NCBI GenBank assembly: GCA_028284955.1
Contig: JANQQS010000185.1
Span: forward strand, 1-32,028
Direction: 5' to 3'
DNA length: 32,028 nucleotides
Source of the DNA: Myxococcota bacterium
GTDB taxonomy: Bacteria > Myxococcota_A > Polyangia > Polyangiales > Houyiibacteriaceae
In this document: piece by piece, positions 15,152-32,028 of the stretch
How the letters are laid out: every line of letters begins with the position of its first letter
Numbering within the stretch: the first letter of the stretch is position 1
Notes under the pieces: model-generated
The model's database searches: none
The model's input: only the letters and a program-made list of their open reading frames with translations
What the model was told of the DNA's origin: nothing
Position numbers and translations under genes: made by a program

Positions 15152-17155
15152 CTACCCCTCCTTCAGGGCTCGGTCGATCGCCGCTTTGAACGCCGGGAAA
15201 GGCTGTGCGCCCTGGAGTAGGCGGCCGTTGATGAAGAACGACGGGGTCCCAATTCGCGCCCCCGACTCACGCACCGCGTTCAAGTCGGCGTCAACTCCGG
15301 CTTTGTGCGTCTGGGAATCGAGCGCGGATCGGAACTGCGCCATGTTGATGCCGCCAACCTGCTGAGCGTATTTCTCGAGGTCGGCGCGGCCCAGGGCCTT
15401 CTGGTTGGTGAACAGCAAATCGTGAAACTTCCAGAACTTGTCGTTTCCGCCTTGCTTGAACACCTCCCGCGCGGCTTGCGCGGCAGGGCCAGCTTCCTGG
15501 TGAAATGGAAGCGGGTAATCCCGCCACACGATCTTTACCTTGTTGCCGTACTCCTGTTCGACTTGCTTGATCGTTGGAAGCACGCGACCGCAGAAGGGGC
15601 ATTGAAAGTCGCTAAACAGCTGAACCACGACCTTTGCATTGCGCCCGCCCTTGAACGGAGCATTCCGAGGCGCAGCGATTTCGTACACCTTGTCAGCATC
15701 CGGCGCAGCGGCGGCCGGCGCGGCGGCGGGCCCGTCATCCAAGAATTTCGGTGACGTCGCTCCGCTCTTGATCGTCGCGGCGTAAACTCCGCTGCGCGGG
15801 GTCCCCTTGGCCACCAGCGCCTTCGCTTTGGCAAGCTCCTGGTCAATGACCTGCTCAAACGCCGGCAGAGGCTGCGCGCCGCGAAGGTTGCGCCCGTTGA
15901 TAAAGAACGAAGGGGTTCCCGTAGCGCCAAGCGAACGGGCGATTTGCTGCTGGGCATCAATGGCTTTCTGATGGGTCTTGCCATCCAGCGCGGAGCGGAA
16001 CTGAGCCATATTCAGCCCGATTTCCTTGGCGTAGCTCTCCAAGTTTTCGCGGGTTAGCCCACGCTGATTGGCAAAGAGCTTTTCGTGCATCTTCCAAAAC
16101 TTGGCATCACCGCCTTGCTTATGCGCCTCGAGCGCCGCCATAGCCGCAGGTCCCGCGTTTTGGTGAAACGGCAAGGGATTGTTCATCCACACGACACGAA
16201 CGTCTCGTCCGTACTTCTTCACGATCTGCGCGACGGTTGGCTCAACGCGTCCACAGAAGGGACATTCGAAATCGCTGAACTCCACGATGGTGACCAAGGC
16301 GTCGTCTGGGCCCTTCTGGGGTTCGTTACCCTGCAGCGTGACCTTATATACCGCGTCGGGGTCAGGACGACGTCGAGCCGGCTGCTTGGCTTTGTCAGCT
16401 TCTGGCGCGGGGGCCGACGTCAGACCATTCTTGGTGAGCGCGGCATACACCTTGCCCGCCGGAAGGCCTTCTTTGACCAGGCTTTCGGCGCGCCGAATCT
16501 CGTCATCGATCACTTCCTTGAATCGCTCGAACGGCTGGGCGCCCATCAGCTGACGACCATTGATGAAAAACGCCGGTGTTCCTCGAGCGCCCATTTTTTG
16601 AGCGATCTGCTGGTCGGCTTGAATGGCGCTGGCGTACTTCTTGGACGCAATGGCCGCCTTAACCTTGCCCACGTCGAGTCCTGCGCTCCGGGCGTATCGC
16701 TCCAAATCAGCTGGTTTGAGCGATTGCTGGTTTTCAAACATGAGGTCGTGCATCTTCCAAAACTTCTCTGAGCCGCCCTGTTTGAACGCCTCCACCGACG
16801 CGTTCGCGGCTCCCATCGCACTGGCATGGAACGGAAGCGGATTGTTGCGCCAGACAAACCGAACTTTGCCTTTGTATTCGTTCATGATGCGCGACGTGGT
16901 CGGCAATACGCGCTTACAGAATGGGCATTCAAACTCGCTAAACTCGACGATGGTGACCAGCGCATCCTCCGGGCCCTTGCTCGGCTGGTCATCGGTCACC
17001 GGGATCTTGAAGCGCTGAATATCTGCGCCCGCGGCGTCCCCATCGATCTCAACGGCGGCGGAGTCGTCGCCGCCGATTCCTGACGACAAATGGCCGATGG
17101 CAAAGCCACCGACGAATGCGATCAAAATCGCAATGATTGCTGAACCTTTACTCAT
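15152..17155 (-). CDS. Exported protein with three tandem DsbA-like thioredoxin domains
   Basis: The 667-residue protein starts with a membrane/signal segment (about 5-24). Three DsbA-family domains of about 190 residues follow. Each has a CPFC active site (Cys77/80, Cys298/301, Cys519/522), the downstream WxNPLPFH or WRDYPLPFH block, the KFWKMHD-type helix and the GTPxFFING cis-proline loop (Pro194, Pro415, Pro638). Pro/Ala-rich linkers separate them. All three look catalytically complete, so it is probably a periplasmic dithiol oxidase or isomerase with triple capacity. The frame extends to 17281, but ATG at 17155 has a good AAAGGA Shine-Dalgarno and begins the signal segment. It is monocistronic with a long leader containing an inverted repeat. 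Single-domain relatives are about 200-250 residues, so the triplication is unusual. Confidence 0.93.
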   Translation of the reverse strand: MSKGSAIIAILIAFVGGFAIGHLSSGIGGDDSAAVEIDGDAAGADIQRFKIPVTDDQPSKGPEDALVTIVEFSEFECPFCKRVLPTTSRIMNEYKGKVRFVWRNNPLPFHASAMGAANASVEAFKQGGSEKFWKMHDLMFENQQSLKPADLERYARSAGLDVGKVKAAIASKKYASAIQADQQIAQKMGARGTPAFFINGRQLMGAQPFERFKEVIDDEIRRAESLVKEGLPAGKVYAALTKNGLTSAPAPEADKAKQPARRRPDPDAVYKVTLQGNEPQKGPDDALVTIVEFSDFECPFCGRVEPTVAQIVKKYGRDVRVVWMNNPLPFHQNAGPAAMAALEAHKQGGDAKFWKMHEKLFANQRGLTRENLESYAKEIGLNMAQFRSALDGKTHQKAIDAQQQIARSLGATGTPSFFINGRNLRGAQPLPAFEQVIDQELAKAKALVAKGTPRSGVYAATIKSGATSPKFLDDGPAAAPAAAAPDADKVYEIAAPRNAPFKGGRNAKVVVQLFSDFQCPFCGRVLPTIKQVEQEYGNKVKIVWRDYPLPFHQEAGPAAQAAREVFKQGGNDKFWKFHDLLFTNQKALGRADLEKYAQQVGGINMAQFRSALDSQTHKAGVDADLNAVRESGARIGTPSFFINGRLLQGAQPFPAFKAAIDRALKEG

Positions 17156-17522
17156 TTTCTGATCCTTTGCGCGAACCTCGCGCGGGGTTTCTGGGTTTCC
17201 AAGAGAAAACTGTGGGCGCGTTCCGATGCGTTCGGAACGCAACCCGTATCGTGTTTCCGCAGGTCCGAAAACCAGCGGCATCGAGGTGCTTCACCAACGT
17301 TGTCCGCGACGAAAGCGACCCGCCGAACGATTCGAACATCGCGTTCGAGAAGGGTCGTATCCGAACATCGATCCGTCGCGAATCTGAACGCGACGAGCGA
17401 CCGTCGCTGCGCTCAAAGCGCTAGAGTCTGAGCCGACAAGGGCTTCGCCTGAGCGGTGATTCCGACTCGAAGAGGTTTCGAAAACCTGGACGGAGCCCGA
17501 AACCCGGCCGTATGAAATCGAG
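17156..17522. promoter_or_regulatory. Leader/promoter region of the triple-DsbA gene, with inverted repeats
   Basis: No gene is seen. A perfect 9-bp inverted repeat with a 5-bp spacer lies at 17218-17240 (arms GCGTTCCGA and TCGGAACGC), about 65 bp upstream of the start. A second, related one is at 17332-17348 (TCGAAC and GTTCGA, 5-bp spacer). Both share GTTC/GAAC cores and could be operator sites or RNA hairpins. A small hairpin AGGTTT/AAACCT lies at 17473-17487. No clear -35/-10 was found. Confidence 0.4.
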
Positions 17523-19314: not shown

Positions 19315-22146
19315 TCAGGGGACGAATACTCGATAGCTCGCCCAATCTTGCTTCGGGAAACGTTCTCTCAGCGCGCGAACTGCATCGACAAAACGTCGCC
19401 AATCCGCTTGCGGAGGCGCCGTCGCGCGTGAAGCGGATGCGCCCGTGGTGGTGGACCGATCCCTCGGATAGATCGCCTCCGCCAAAGCATACGCAAGCGC
19501 GTCAGACACCGGACGAGTCGCCGCAAGCACGGTTTCGCTTCCTGCGAGCAAGAACGCGTGCGCAATCCCTAGACCTTGAACGGGCCCATCTTGAGCGCTG
19601 CGGGCGGTTTCGCATCCCGAAAGCACAACCGTGCGGGGTACGCGCGCAAGCAGCAGCACATCACCCACCATCAATTCCCCGGCGTTCGCAAGCAGCAACC
19701 GACTATCCCACGCTCCGCGTCCTTCAAAGAGCCCGTGCCCCGCATAGTGAAACCACCGTGCAGAGCGCAAGGCATCGAGAACTGGCTCGCGAGTGGCGTC
19801 ACCACCCGCCAGCTCCACCACCTCAAACCCCATCCTCGGAAGCGCGCGGCTGGCGACACGCCCTTCTTTCCGAGCCAGCGCGAGATCGCCACGGGCATCG
19901 CTGATGACCAGTGCTTTGCGCGTCGCCGACGGGGGCGCGGGGACTGAAATATCGAGACCGTACGCGACGGGCACACGGGCCTGCAGAGGCTGGCCATCGA
20001 CCACCAGGGCATGAACATCGACTTCACGAAACGGCCCGTAGGGTAGAACCCGAATCACTTCCGCGCGCGCCACCTCGCGCGCAAATGGGCCCAGCAAACG
20101 TTCCGATAGACCGCTCTTGTCCAGAGTTCCGAGCCATGGCCCGAGACGCGCGGCACGCACGCCTTTCTTGTCGGCAACAAACCCGATCCAGCCTGCGCGG
20201 CCTGGAAAATAGGTCAGCAGAGCCTCGCCTCGCCCCATCGCACCGGGCGCGACGAAATCGCTCGTCGACGGCTTGAGCGGCTCAGTTCCAGAACCGAGCA
20301 CCAGCAGCATGCGGTCGAGCAGTCCGCGAACTTCTTTCTTTTGAGCGGTGATGGTCTTTTGTCGCGCACGAAGTTCGTCCGCAGGTAGCTGCCACGCCTG
20401 CGCCGCGTCTGCCGAAAGTTTCTTTCGTCGCTCACGATACGCGCGCAACGCCTTTTCCCATCGCTCCTTTCGGCTCCCCGCAAGCTCAGAAAGCCGGCTG
20501 CGTTGGGCCAGCCCGAAAAGCCCTCGCGCGCGCACTCGCCGAACCACCGACAGCGCTTCGTCGGCGCGCCCTTGAAGCACCAACAAATCCACCAAGCGGC
20601 GAGCGCTCTCCTCCCATTGCCCGAGAAACGTGCCTCGACCCTCGCCGAGAGGAATCCGCAGCTGTGCTTCGTCCACCTGCCGCTCCGCCATCCGATAGCT
20701 CTCGAGCGCCTCTCGCGTTCTTCCCATGACCTCGAGCGTCCGTCCTCGCCCCATCGCGGCTTGCCATGCAAACTCGGGTGCGAACGCTGCCTCCGAGCGC
20801 GCCCAAAACCGATCGTACACCCGCAGCGCGTCTCGCGTGCGACGTTCGGCCAACGCAATTTGACCCTCGGCGTGGAGCATCCAAGCACGAATATCTCCGC
20901 GCGGTTGGTCCGAGATGGCACGCGCTTCCGCAAGCCACTTCTTGGCTTGGCTGATGTCGTTACGCTGAAGCTCCGCCAGCGCCAAATTGGTCAACACGCA
21001 TTGTTGCCGATCTACACGCGCACAACCCTTCCGATACGCTGCCAAAGCGCGCATGAACACCGGACGAGGATCGCGCTCCGGACGGTTCTCGCGACGCTGA
21101 TTCGACGCCTGCCACGGCAACCGATGCGCACGTTGAAGAAGCCGAATCCATCCTAGATTCGTCGCCAAATCAGCCTGCTCGCACGCGTCGCTTCCTGCAC
21201 CGAGTTCCGTTTCGAGCTGGGCAAATTGCGACGCAGCGTCTTCGCTTCGGCCCAGTTGTTGAAGCGCCCATCCCCGAACCTGGTCGATATTGCGACGATC
21301 GTAGCGCATTTCGAGACGCGTCGCGCCGCGGCGCGCTCGCTCGAGCCATCTCAGCGCGCCGCGGAGATCTCCTCGATCTTTCGCGATTAGACCGCGATGG
21401 TAGTTCACGAGCACCCGACCTTCGGGGTAGTCGCCCAAGAGCGGCTCGATAGCATCGAGCGTTTCTCGAGATTCTTCAAACCGCCATCGTTCGCGCTCGA
21501 CGAAAGCCAACGCGATCGTGTTGTCGACAGCTTCTGAAACTCGACCCGCCCGGCGCAACGCAGGTAGCGAACGACCTAGTTCTTCACTCGCGCGGTGGGC
21601 TGCTCCTTCGGATAGTGAAACACGACCCATCCAGCCCCATGCACGCCCGCGCTCGGCAGGGTCCCCCGCATTCAATGCGCGCTTCAGAGCAGCGCGAGCG
21701 GCGTCGAATTCTCCGCGCGCACGAAGCTTTCGCGCGCGCTCAATCGAAGCGTCAGGATGGTTCGCAGCGAGCCGAAGACGAAACACCGAAGCTCGGCCAC
21801 CACGCTCGAACCGGAGCTCGACGTGTCGGGCCAACTTCGAAACCTCAAACCCAATCTGGGTACCGCGTTCTCCGACGCGGCTCGTGACGGGCGCCGAACG
21901 ACCATCGACACGTAACGCGAACGCTTCAGATCGAGCCGCAGTCCACAGCCTCAGTCGAGACCGCGACGTTTGCGCCAGCAAACAAACCGGGCCCTTCAAG
22001 ACAGCGGCGCACCCCGCGAAATCGACCTTAAGGGCTCGCTCGATGGTTTCGGAAGGAGACTCGTGGGACGGATCGCAACCAACAAGCCCACACATCGCGA
22101 GACACCAGGCGCATCGTGCTCTCCCATCCATGGCGCGAAAACCCAT
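19315..22146 (-). CDS. CHAT-domain (caspase-like) protease with TPR repeats and a lipoprotein signal
   Basis: About 943 residues from ATG 22146 (GTG 22155 and ATG 22131 are alternatives; none has a clear Shine-Dalgarno). The N-terminus has Arg residues, a short hydrophobic core and a good lipobox LVGC, so it is predicted to be exported and lipidated. A beta-rich segment (about 35-130) is followed by helical TPR-like repeats (about 140-520). A basic coiled stretch precedes the C-terminal CHAT domain (about 620-943). CHAT active-site motifs are intact: HYAGHG with His804 and SGCETA with Cys845. CHAT proteases in bacteria cut partner proteins on a signal sensed by their repeats. The target is unknown; neighbours are lipoproteins and an amino-sugar kinase. 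Confidence 0.88.
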   Translation of the reverse strand: MGFRAMDGRARCAWCLAMCGLVGCDPSHESPSETIERALKVDFAGCAAVLKGPVCLLAQTSRSRLRLWTAARSEAFALRVDGRSAPVTSRVGERGTQIGFEVSKLARHVELRFERGGRASVFRLRLAANHPDASIERARKLRARGEFDAARAALKRALNAGDPAERGRAWGWMGRVSLSEGAAHRASEELGRSLPALRRAGRVSEAVDNTIALAFVERERWRFEESRETLDAIEPLLGDYPEGRVLVNYHRGLIAKDRGDLRGALRWLERARRGATRLEMRYDRRNIDQVRGWALQQLGRSEDAASQFAQLETELGAGSDACEQADLATNLGWIRLLQRAHRLPWQASNQRRENRPERDPRPVFMRALAAYRKGCARVDRQQCVLTNLALAELQRNDISQAKKWLAEARAISDQPRGDIRAWMLHAEGQIALAERRTRDALRVYDRFWARSEAAFAPEFAWQAAMGRGRTLEVMGRTREALESYRMAERQVDEAQLRIPLGEGRGTFLGQWEESARRLVDLLVLQGRADEALSVVRRVRARGLFGLAQRSRLSELAGSRKERWEKALRAYRERRKKLSADAAQAWQLPADELRARQKTITAQKKEVRGLLDRMLLVLGSGTEPLKPSTSDFVAPGAMGRGEALLTYFPGRAGWIGFVADKKGVRAARLGPWLGTLDKSGLSERLLGPFAREVARAEVIRVLPYGPFREVDVHALVVDGQPLQARVPVAYGLDISVPAPPSATRKALVISDARGDLALARKEGRVASRALPRMGFEVVELAGGDATREPVLDALRSARWFHYAGHGLFEGRGAWDSRLLLANAGELMVGDVLLLARVPRTVVLSGCETARSAQDGPVQGLGIAHAFLLAGSETVLAATRPVSDALAYALAEAIYPRDRSTTTGASASRATAPPQADWRRFVDAVRALRERFPKQDWASYRVFVP

Positions 22147-22226
22147 CGCGGGCACAACGTAGGCCGTATGGAACGCTGGATCTAGCGAGCGCTGTGCACG
22201 ACGGAGCGAAGCCGCGGCAGCGAGGG

Positions 22227-31054: not shown

Positions 31055-31510
31055 ATGGTGGTCGAAGTCGATATAGACGTCGAGGGTGGGCTCGAATCGC
31101 CGGTCACGCTGCGTATTCCGGTGTCCTCCAAGCGTCCTGTTTCGGTGTTGGTGGTGTCCTCCACAGACGAGCTCGCGAGCTGGCTGACCACGGCGCTAGG
31201 CTCCGAACGTGTGCGCGTACGTACAGTGAGAGAGGAACCGGAACTGCGGCGCGCTGTGTTCTCAGATTCGCCATTGCTCGTATTGATCGATACGAAGGCG
31301 CCAGCCGACATCGAGCGGGGAACACTGGCCGCCGCGGTCCGAGATTTGCCCGACAGCGTGACACCGGTGATTTGGGCCGTCGACGACGACTTCGGGCGAA
31401 CCTTGGCGCAAAACCTCCGTGCAGTCGCTGTGTTCGTCGTCGAGCTACAACGCAGCGAAGGGGAAGAACCGCTGCTTGACCTAGTCCGATCCCGGCACTC
31501 AGCTGACTAG
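31055..31510 (+). CDS. Receiver-like (pseudo-receiver) protein of unknown function
   Basis: Of 151 residues, 29-145 look like the fold of a response-regulator receiver: SVLVVSSTDELASWL (strand 1 and helix 1), LLVLIDTKAP with an Asp at residue 79 where the phospho-acceptor would be, and PVIWAVDDDF and VAVFVVE for strands 4-5. The acidic pair usually found after strand 1 is SST, and no conserved Thr or Lys is evident after strands 4 and 5, so phosphorylation is doubtful. The first 28 residues are an acidic, beta-like start (VEVDIDVEGG) that could bind a partner. Its function is unknown; it may be a protein-protein module. It is divergent from purB. Confidence 0.6.
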   Translation: MVVEVDIDVEGGLESPVTLRIPVSSKRPVSVLVVSSTDELASWLTTALGSERVRVRTVREEPELRRAVFSDSPLLVLIDTKAPADIERGTLAAAVRDLPDSVTPVIWAVDDDFGRTLAQNLRAVAVFVVELQRSEGEEPLLDLVRSRHSAD

Positions 31511-32028
31511 CCTGAGGAGCTGACCGCAGCCGCTCTGTTTTCGGAGGGGCTGACCGCAGCCCCTCCCCCCACGGAATACGATTCCGCGGGGCCCCCCTCC
31601 CGACTCCGCTTCGCGCTGCGCGGGGGCCCCTACGCCCCCTTGCTCTTGCTGGGCGGCGTTCCGGTGAGGGAACTGCTTTGTGGTGAGCTGCTCCGACTTT
31701 GTCTTCTGAAAGAGTAACTTCGTCCCCAGTCCGGCCGCTATCGCGGCCGCCCCATCGCTTCGCGATGGGGCCCCGGCAGTTTACCCTCACGCAACCAGGT
31801 TACGTGCCTCCTGGCGGGGGAGTTTGGGTGGCCGTGTAGTTCGGAGGGTTTGAGGCAAACCCTCCCCCACGCGGGTACGACCCGCGCGGGGCCCCCTCCC
31901 AACTCCGGCCGCTTGCGCGGCCGCCCCATCGCTTCGCGATGGGGCCCCGGCAGTTTACCCTCACGCAACCAGGTTACGTGCCTCCTGGCGGGGGAGTTTG
32001 GGTGAATCGACGGGATCGTACCCCGACG
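31511..32028. repeat. Cluster of structured intergenic repeats at the right window end
   Basis: No gene is credible here; the open frames are by-products. The 89-bp segment 31742-31830 is repeated exactly at 31916-32004. Each copy has a hairpin CCCCATCGC/GCGATGGGG (31750-31770 and 31924-31944). 31574-31652 repeats the first 79 bp of the window. Two further hairpins at 31544-31565 (GAGGGGCTG/CAGCCCCTC) and 31843-31865 (GGAGGGTTTG/CAAACCCTCC) are each followed by an ACG-loop hairpin at 31573-31585 and 31871-31885. Confidence 0.85.
31543..31652. repeat. Structured repeat unit A (left part)
   Basis: A GAGGGGCTG hairpin with four-base loop is followed by a C-run, the GGAAT/ACG/ATTCC hairpin, GCGGGGCCCCCC and a second GGGGGCCCC; GGGGCCCC is self-complementary. 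It aligns with 31843-31910 in order and spacing, with different stem bases. It begins about 30 bp after the stop of the preceding gene and could also act in its transcription end. Confidence 0.75.

Follow-up and report, generated by a model that had tools for sequence, protein, structure and literature searches.

A REP-like family of two-hairpin cassettes in Myxococcota, probably mobile and often placed just behind genes

The window analysed here, 32,028 nucleotides long, is the whole of one contig (C219) of a 6.07-Mb genome in 223 contigs, hereafter the own genome, and both of its ends lie within repeated hairpin units. We propose that these units are cassettes of a REP-like, non-coding mobile element family of Myxococcota (class Polyangia), which probably spreads in trans and forms part of the 3' untranslated region once it lies behind a gene. 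Copy number, a layout common to several genera, paired changes in the stems, the presence or absence of elements and sense placement past stop codons were all observed directly. Few non-coding repeats of bacteria are as common as REPs, whose placement and role are still debated; the cassettes would be another REP-like family, independent of the first, from a phylum of which the two REP surveys searched make no mention.

Cassette architecture at the window ends

All cassettes follow one frame, consisting of a leader, a first hairpin (H1; GAGGG-nn..nn-CCCTC), CCCC, a second hairpin (H2) and GGGGCCCCCTCCC, followed by more hairpins. The cassette is part of a multi-hairpin element of 90-200 bp, and longer, tandem and nested forms occur too. 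The contig ends within one element (31511-32028) and starts within another (1-345), with the following features.

31055-31510: open reading frame with a TAG stop (31508-31510), a putative gene with no Pfam match or other independent confirmation
31511-31542, + strand: degenerate H1-like hairpin (31514-31535) 3 nt past the TAG stop at 31508-31510, then the T-rich leader TGTTTTC
31543-31566, + strand: H1 of unit 1 (type a), GGAGGGGCTG-ACCG-CAGCCCCTCC
31567-31592, + strand: H2 of unit 1, CCCC-ACGGAAT-ACG-ATTCCGC-GGGG
31588-31602, + strand: flank after H2, GGGGCCCCCCTCCC, kept in all genera examined
31603-31721, + strand: linker hairpins GCGCTGCGC and GGGGGCCCCTACGCCCCC and the variable middle of the composite element; G044 has a similar linker
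31723-31830, + strand: M module, copy 1, with GGCCGC and CCCCATCGC hairpins, a CCAGG...CCTGG part and the end GGGGGAGTTTGGGTG
31843-31866, + strand: H1 of unit 2 (type b), GGAGGGTTTG-AGG-CAAACCCTCC, with CGTGTAGTTC as the leader 5' of H1
31867-31896, + strand: H2 of unit 2, CACGCGGGT-ACG-ACCCGCGCGGGGCCCCC
31897-32004, + strand: M module, copy 2
32004-32028, - strand: beginning of a type c unit (inverted end unit), truncated at the contig end
1-157, + strand: 3' part of a further element, with H2 GAATACGATTCC, GGGGCCCCCCTCCC, linker and an M-like part, its 5' part lost at the contig start
158-210, - strand: inverted end unit (type c), with leader, H1 GGGTCTGGCACCCAGACCC, H2 CGGGAT-ACG-ATCCCG and CGATTCACCC
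223-275, - strand: second type c unit, identical to 158-210
266-345, - strand: 22-bp tandem half-units, H1 5' arm plus leader, repeated (GAGGGTCTGGCCGTTCGTTTCT)

A sequence-only reading of this DNA had placed two hairpin-bearing units at 31543-31652 and 31843-31910, and both are present with those hairpins, folding better than every one of 200 dinucleotide shuffles (z of -3.6 and -4.2). Its reversed parts at 159-275 proved to be two identical 53-bp units (158-210 and 223-275) of a distinct opposite-end type, type c, and the sequence that follows their hairpins is CGATTCACCC and not, as that reading had it, GGGGCCCC. It had passed over the truncated unit at 32004-32028, the degenerate H1 at 31514-31535 and the duplication of the 108-bp M module, whose copies at 31723-31830 and 31897-32004 are 96% identical at a spacing of 174. 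The truncated type c unit carries the ACG stem GGGGT-ACG-ATCCC with one uncompensated change (G.T on one strand, A.C on the other). The half-units at 266-345 look like repeated copying of the element end, and similar half-units lie 5' of type c units elsewhere. Rfam gave no match at gathering score in the window or in the loci of six relatives.

Since the contig both begins and ends inside repeats, the assembly breaks at these repeats, and the family probably causes much of this assembly's fragmentation; the practical effect is that such repeats break Myxococcota genome assemblies. Away from the repeats, the window encodes on the minus strand a protein of 709 aa in which three stretches resemble thioredoxin/DsbA (15152-17281) and a 946-aa TPR-CHAT protein (19315-22155).

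Copy number and spread across genomes

The family is neither a product of chance nor an artefact, and it is not confined to the window. With the right-end element as query, BLAST found 81 places in the own genome, and a covariance model built from 64 units, the kind of search that the sequence-only reading had called for, found at least 150 (E < 5e-4). A 393-kb sample of this genome, picked contig by contig, held 19 cassettes, all of them intergenic by a simple ORF caller, and extrapolation from this sample would put the whole genome at about 290. For many of the unit matches in the own genome, a contig end is no more than a few hundred bases away.

Across the order we searched with a frame pattern in which H2 was left free (8-30 N) and a mismatch was permitted at the two inner H1 pairs. 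Carriers made up 11 of 184 genomes, with 85 matches in the own genome, 53 in G016, 25 in G178, 18 in G011, 16 in G035, 13 in G179 and fewer in the remaining carriers; the reversed pattern, used as a control, matched nowhere in the 184 genomes. GTDB contigs (85,000 prokaryote genomes, 257 Gb) yielded at least 75 loci, all the listed ones lying in MAGs titled Myxococcota, Myxococcales, Sandaracinaceae, Polyangiaceae, Kofleriaceae, Polyangia, Deltaproteobacteria or plain 'bacterium'. An even draw of 379 genomes of the phylum contained 7 carriers, all of the same class (Polyangia). Viral contigs held no cassettes, and neither did plasmids or phages when the right-end element itself was the query.

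The layout is found in other Polyangia genera too, where the stems and loops of H2 are replaced wholesale and H2 is still self-complementary, as in these examples.

Own genome: GGAAT-ACG-ATTCC and CGGGT-ACG-ACCCG
G011 and G016: GGGGC-ATGAA-GCCCC
G178: ATGCGGC-AAA-GCCGCAT and ATCGCGGC-AAA-GCCGCGAT
G035 and G181: CATTGGGCG-AA-GCGCCAATG
G054: ATTCGGA-GTGAA-TCCGAAT

The suggestion of a mobile palindromic family, made from the window, is thus supported by hundreds of copies, by relatives in other genera and by two presence/absence polymorphisms, to which we return below.

Paired changes in the stems

Stem differences between the units of the window are compensated around a constant loop, as had been noticed from the letters, the loop in the own genome being TACGA where ACG had been given. 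Across genomes, the two free H1 pairs were Watson-Crick in 286 of 288 cells, compared with a mean of 233 and a maximum of 248 in within-genome shuffles; this count was grouped by genome and drew on a slightly larger set than the 135 distinct units used for individual pairs. Among those 135, the K-M pair was G-C in 63, T-A in 70 and T-C in 2, and the Y-R pair was C-G in 108 and T-A in 27. The paired changes are genuine, and both K-M states are present together in eight genomes, so that the double change has arisen again, or been exchanged, on many occasions. In H2 regions the longest stem averaged 5.5 bp, versus 3.0 bp after letter shuffling, and 59% versus 1.7% of the regions reached 6 bp. In G178, H2 has gained a base pair through a paired insertion (CATGCGGC/GCCGCATG versus CATCGCGGC/GCCGCGATG).

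Type c units were counted without requiring pairing, which gave C-G 32, T-A 14 and C-A 1 at the H1 pair and G-C 32, A-T 13 and G-T 2 at the H2 pair. The sequence-only reading had named uncompensated changes, or a lack of further copies, as the outcomes that would speak against it; copies are plentiful, and 3 of these 94 type c cells are non-Watson-Crick. A structure count over the 64 own-genome units gave a covariation score of 0.349, compared with 0.153 when shuffled and at most 0.134 when slid, a result that is partly selected at stem 2, which served as a filter when the units were collected, and that understates H1 pairing because the MAFFT rows of type a are off by one in H1. We therefore prefer the manual pair counts.

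Wobble pairs are near absent from the Myxococcota cassettes, whereas frequent GT pairs are reported for REP stems (PMC3733652). At the Y-R pair neither T-G nor C-A occurred in any of the 135 units, though the pattern permitted both, and G-T is rare elsewhere; selection on a folded RNA in particular, one of the options of the earlier argument, is not supported by these counts. Strict Watson-Crick pairing suits a two-strand DNA palindrome, or correction by template switching, as well as it suits RNA.

Template switching between the arms, which copies a change from one arm to the other, could generate paired changes with no selection on them, a reading that is compatible with the mobile family proposed here and that we consider quite possible, if short of probable. 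It agrees with the virtual absence of wobble or half-way states, with the paired single-base-pair insertion in H2 and with conversion-like exchange between G035/G181 copies. The fixed frame (GAGGG..CCCTC, CCCC..GGGGCCCCCTCCC), the near-constant lengths and the lineage-conserved loops nevertheless suggest constraint too, and template switching covers the covariation but not the spread or the position. For the mobile family, we suppose that the perfection of the stems would be owed to a need for the palindrome on both strands, to its renewal by template switching between the arms, or to both, which would account for the near absence of wobble pairs.

Presence/absence polymorphisms between sister genomes

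The sister genomes G035 and G181, both Sandaracinaceae MED-G138, share about 99% identity at the compared loci and differ in the presence of an element of about 200 bp, in which inverted ends of about 21 bp (GGCGRCCCGAARTSCGTTCCG) surround a leader-H1-H2 cassette. One copy occupies a site in G181:C1 that is empty in G035:C76, another occupies a site in G035:C134 that is empty in G181:C122, and the flanks of these sites are about 99% identical. With one polymorphism in each direction, the whole unit of about 200 bp evidently moves or is removed, and gain cannot be told from loss in the single cases. Target duplications are doubtful, comprising GGA and AG alone (2-3 bp). Both cases concern one TIR-bearing subfamily, the only one in which we found clean insertion together with terminal inverted repeats, as in a MITE; for the subfamily at 7 nt past stops, insertion would be read from element-free orthologues. 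Growth also occurs in tandem, with a period of about 172 bp in G035 and 174 in the window, and at other loci units are nested within units or show exchange between copies. A GGCGGTCGCGGA-type tandem array lies behind the cassette at G035:C92:20850-21170 and G181:C116:13360-13590, differing in length by about 90 bp.

The cassette could instead be passive cargo in TIR-bearing MITEs moved by a DDE transposase (e.g. IS630/Tc1-like), its hairpins mattering only as parts of the transposon ends. The inverted ends of the polymorphic G035/G181 element would fit, as would the inverted type c units of the own genome, which face type a/b units and some of which lie inside an CTAGAGCAGTGG inverted-repeat element. 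We nonetheless regard such cargo as somewhat unlikely, given that outer sequences around the cassette are unrelated between genomes, that cassettes lie directly past stops without TIRs of the G035/G181 type, and that in a search for an autonomous parent the inverted ends of the G035 element matched short elements alone and no longer copy.

Search for a mobilising enzyme

In cassette position and copy number the family is REP-like, and its units might be ordinary GTAG-type REPs mobilised in trans by a REP-associated tyrosine transposase (RAYT). The own genome encodes a single Y1_Tnp protein, similar to NCBIfam NF047646 REP_Tyr_transpos at 73.6 bits against a cut-off of 80. No units lie around this RAYT-like gene, however, and none flank the Y1_Tnp genes of G178; the carriers G044 (one contig), G182, G054, G011 and G016 gave no Y1_Tnp match, and no GTAG or CGTC tag is found outside the stem. 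We accordingly hold mobilisation by a RAYT to be very unlikely, and adjacency to a REP-associated tyrosine transposase, which the sequence-only reading had proposed looking for, was not found. Spread of the mobile family proposed here would rely on an enzyme supplied in trans, other than the usual RAYT.

Comparison with known repeat families

Like the REP/BIME sequences of E. coli, Pseudomonas and Stenotrophomonas (PMC2817692, PMC3733652), the cassettes are short, GC-rich, extragenic palindromes in more than 100 copies, paired or clustered, and mostly just 3' of genes; the REPs of P. entomophila and S. wittichii lie mostly within 20 bp of gene ends (PMC3733652). Unlike REP/BIME, a cassette places two differing hairpins next to each other in a fixed frame with hardly any GT pairs, has neither a GTAG head nor an associated RAYT, and has its stems and loops swapped between genera. 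The GTAG tag, an unpaired GT(A/G)G directly 5' of the palindrome, is absent; a T-/Y-rich leader that varies by genome stands there, and the GGAG of the cassette lies within the stem. CGTC REPs carry an unpaired CGTC (or TGTC/CCTC) tag, a stem of 8-9 bp that starts with AT, a loop of 4-5 and a CCA tail, and resemble the cassettes in being palindromic, intergenic, near gene 3' ends and without a known dedicated transposase (PMC3733652). The cassettes differ in having two hairpins and no unpaired tag, AT stem start or CCA tail; in type c a TCGTC adjoins H2 but pairs with GACGA in several copies. The cassettes fit the wide sense of REP as a high-copy extragenic palindrome usually located downstream of genes. 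They are REP-like in abundance and position, and are not members of the GTAG or CGTC groups by tags or RAYT association.

The BOX elements of Streptococcus pneumoniae are likewise modular, tandemly amplifiable and intergenic, with stable stem-loops, but by description they differ from the cassettes in modules, phylum and composition. Correia/NEMIS and RUP, TIR MITEs mentioned as IS630-derived in PMC2817692, are non-coding like the cassettes and spread in trans, as is proposed for these, and the G035/G181 element shares their possession of inverted ends; in the present family, by contrast, the conserved part is the internal two-hairpin cassette and the outer ends differ between genomes. We found no description of the family among myxobacterial intergenic repeats in the open-access literature, and it is apparently undescribed so far.

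Another interspersed family of the own genome, bounded by the inverted ends C-TA-GAGCAGTGGTCAG...CTGACCACTGCTC-TA-G, resembles an IS630/Tc1-type MITE (C183:11380-11700, C183:68619-68860, C29:23999-24540 and C211:38100-38340). Type c units often lie just inside the ends of this family.

Placement behind stop codons

Among the relatives, 34 units have an upstream gene that reads in the same direction, and 10 of them begin 5-8 nt past its in-frame stop, in sense orientation. Uniform placement in the same gaps would give 0.78, and none of 200,000 simulations reached the observed number; on the antisense side, none of 20 units lay closer than 22 nt to its neighbour. A wider set peaks at exactly 7 nt past the stop (14 units), and most sampled units of G178 begin 7-12 nt past an in-frame stop. 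The stops before units are mainly TGA, with TAG and TAA too. The rule is weaker in the own genome, where just part of the end units are found 14 nt or less from a stop and multi-unit composites fill many gaps, and it thus rests on the relatives.

In other genera, most orthologues of unit-bearing genes lack a unit and terminate at the same residue, which indicates that the stop is the gene's own and that the unit arrived later. An alternative in which insertion truncates genes and supplies the stop was rejected on this ground for most cases, the exception being the L209 gene, whose orthologues are 7-20 residues longer in four genomes. In G044, the orthologue of one G035 gene with a unit is also followed by a unit, a different one lying about 8 nt past the stop; the orthologous gap of G182, a congener of G044, holds none.

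Sense placement right past stops and between convergent genes would also be expected if the cassettes were transcription terminators or mRNA 3'-end processing sites multiplied by the host and not selfish elements, and in G182 a different long hairpin occupies the gap where G044 has its cassette. We find this unlikely. H1 and H2 are followed by C and not by a U tract, a promoter and terminator scan returned weak matches alone with none at H1 or H2, terminator-like sites occur only elsewhere in the element, and element-free orthologues are the rule.

If the cassettes belong to a mobile family, as we propose, an element inserted behind a gene would become part of its 3' untranslated region, and a hairpin 7 nt past the stop would meet the terminating ribosome. 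By analogy with REPs within 15 nt of a stop, so stable a hairpin would hinder ribosome clearance or exonucleases; in E. coli, according to work cited in PMC12306157, REPs at such distances stall ribosomes, and 260 of 496 REPs qualify. The cassette may target stop-proximal sites or may simply be tolerated there. A more speculative extension, which we put forward tentatively and would rate as rather improbable, is a class-wide mobile family that recognises, or is retained at, stop codons, in which a leader of about 7 bases sets the cassette at the mRNA entry side of the ribosome and stems and loops diversify by lineage, co-evolving with a non-RAYT enzyme. The lineage-swapped stems and the tight 5-8 nt stop spacing amount to many natural replicates, with which hairpin control of translation or mRNA decay behind stops, selection versus template switching in palindrome upkeep, and non-RAYT spreading enzymes could be tested.

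Unit variants also occur behind tRNA genes of the own genome. At C211:12848-13300 and C211:14555-14900, the genes for tRNA-Ser(TGA) and tRNA-Ser(GCT) each have a T6 tract immediately 3' of them and, beyond it, a unit variant (GAGGGGGTCTTCCGAGACCCCCTC plus a TACGA hairpin); the same loci hold tandem repeats of about 130 bp, with the second hairpin in a GTG-loop version.
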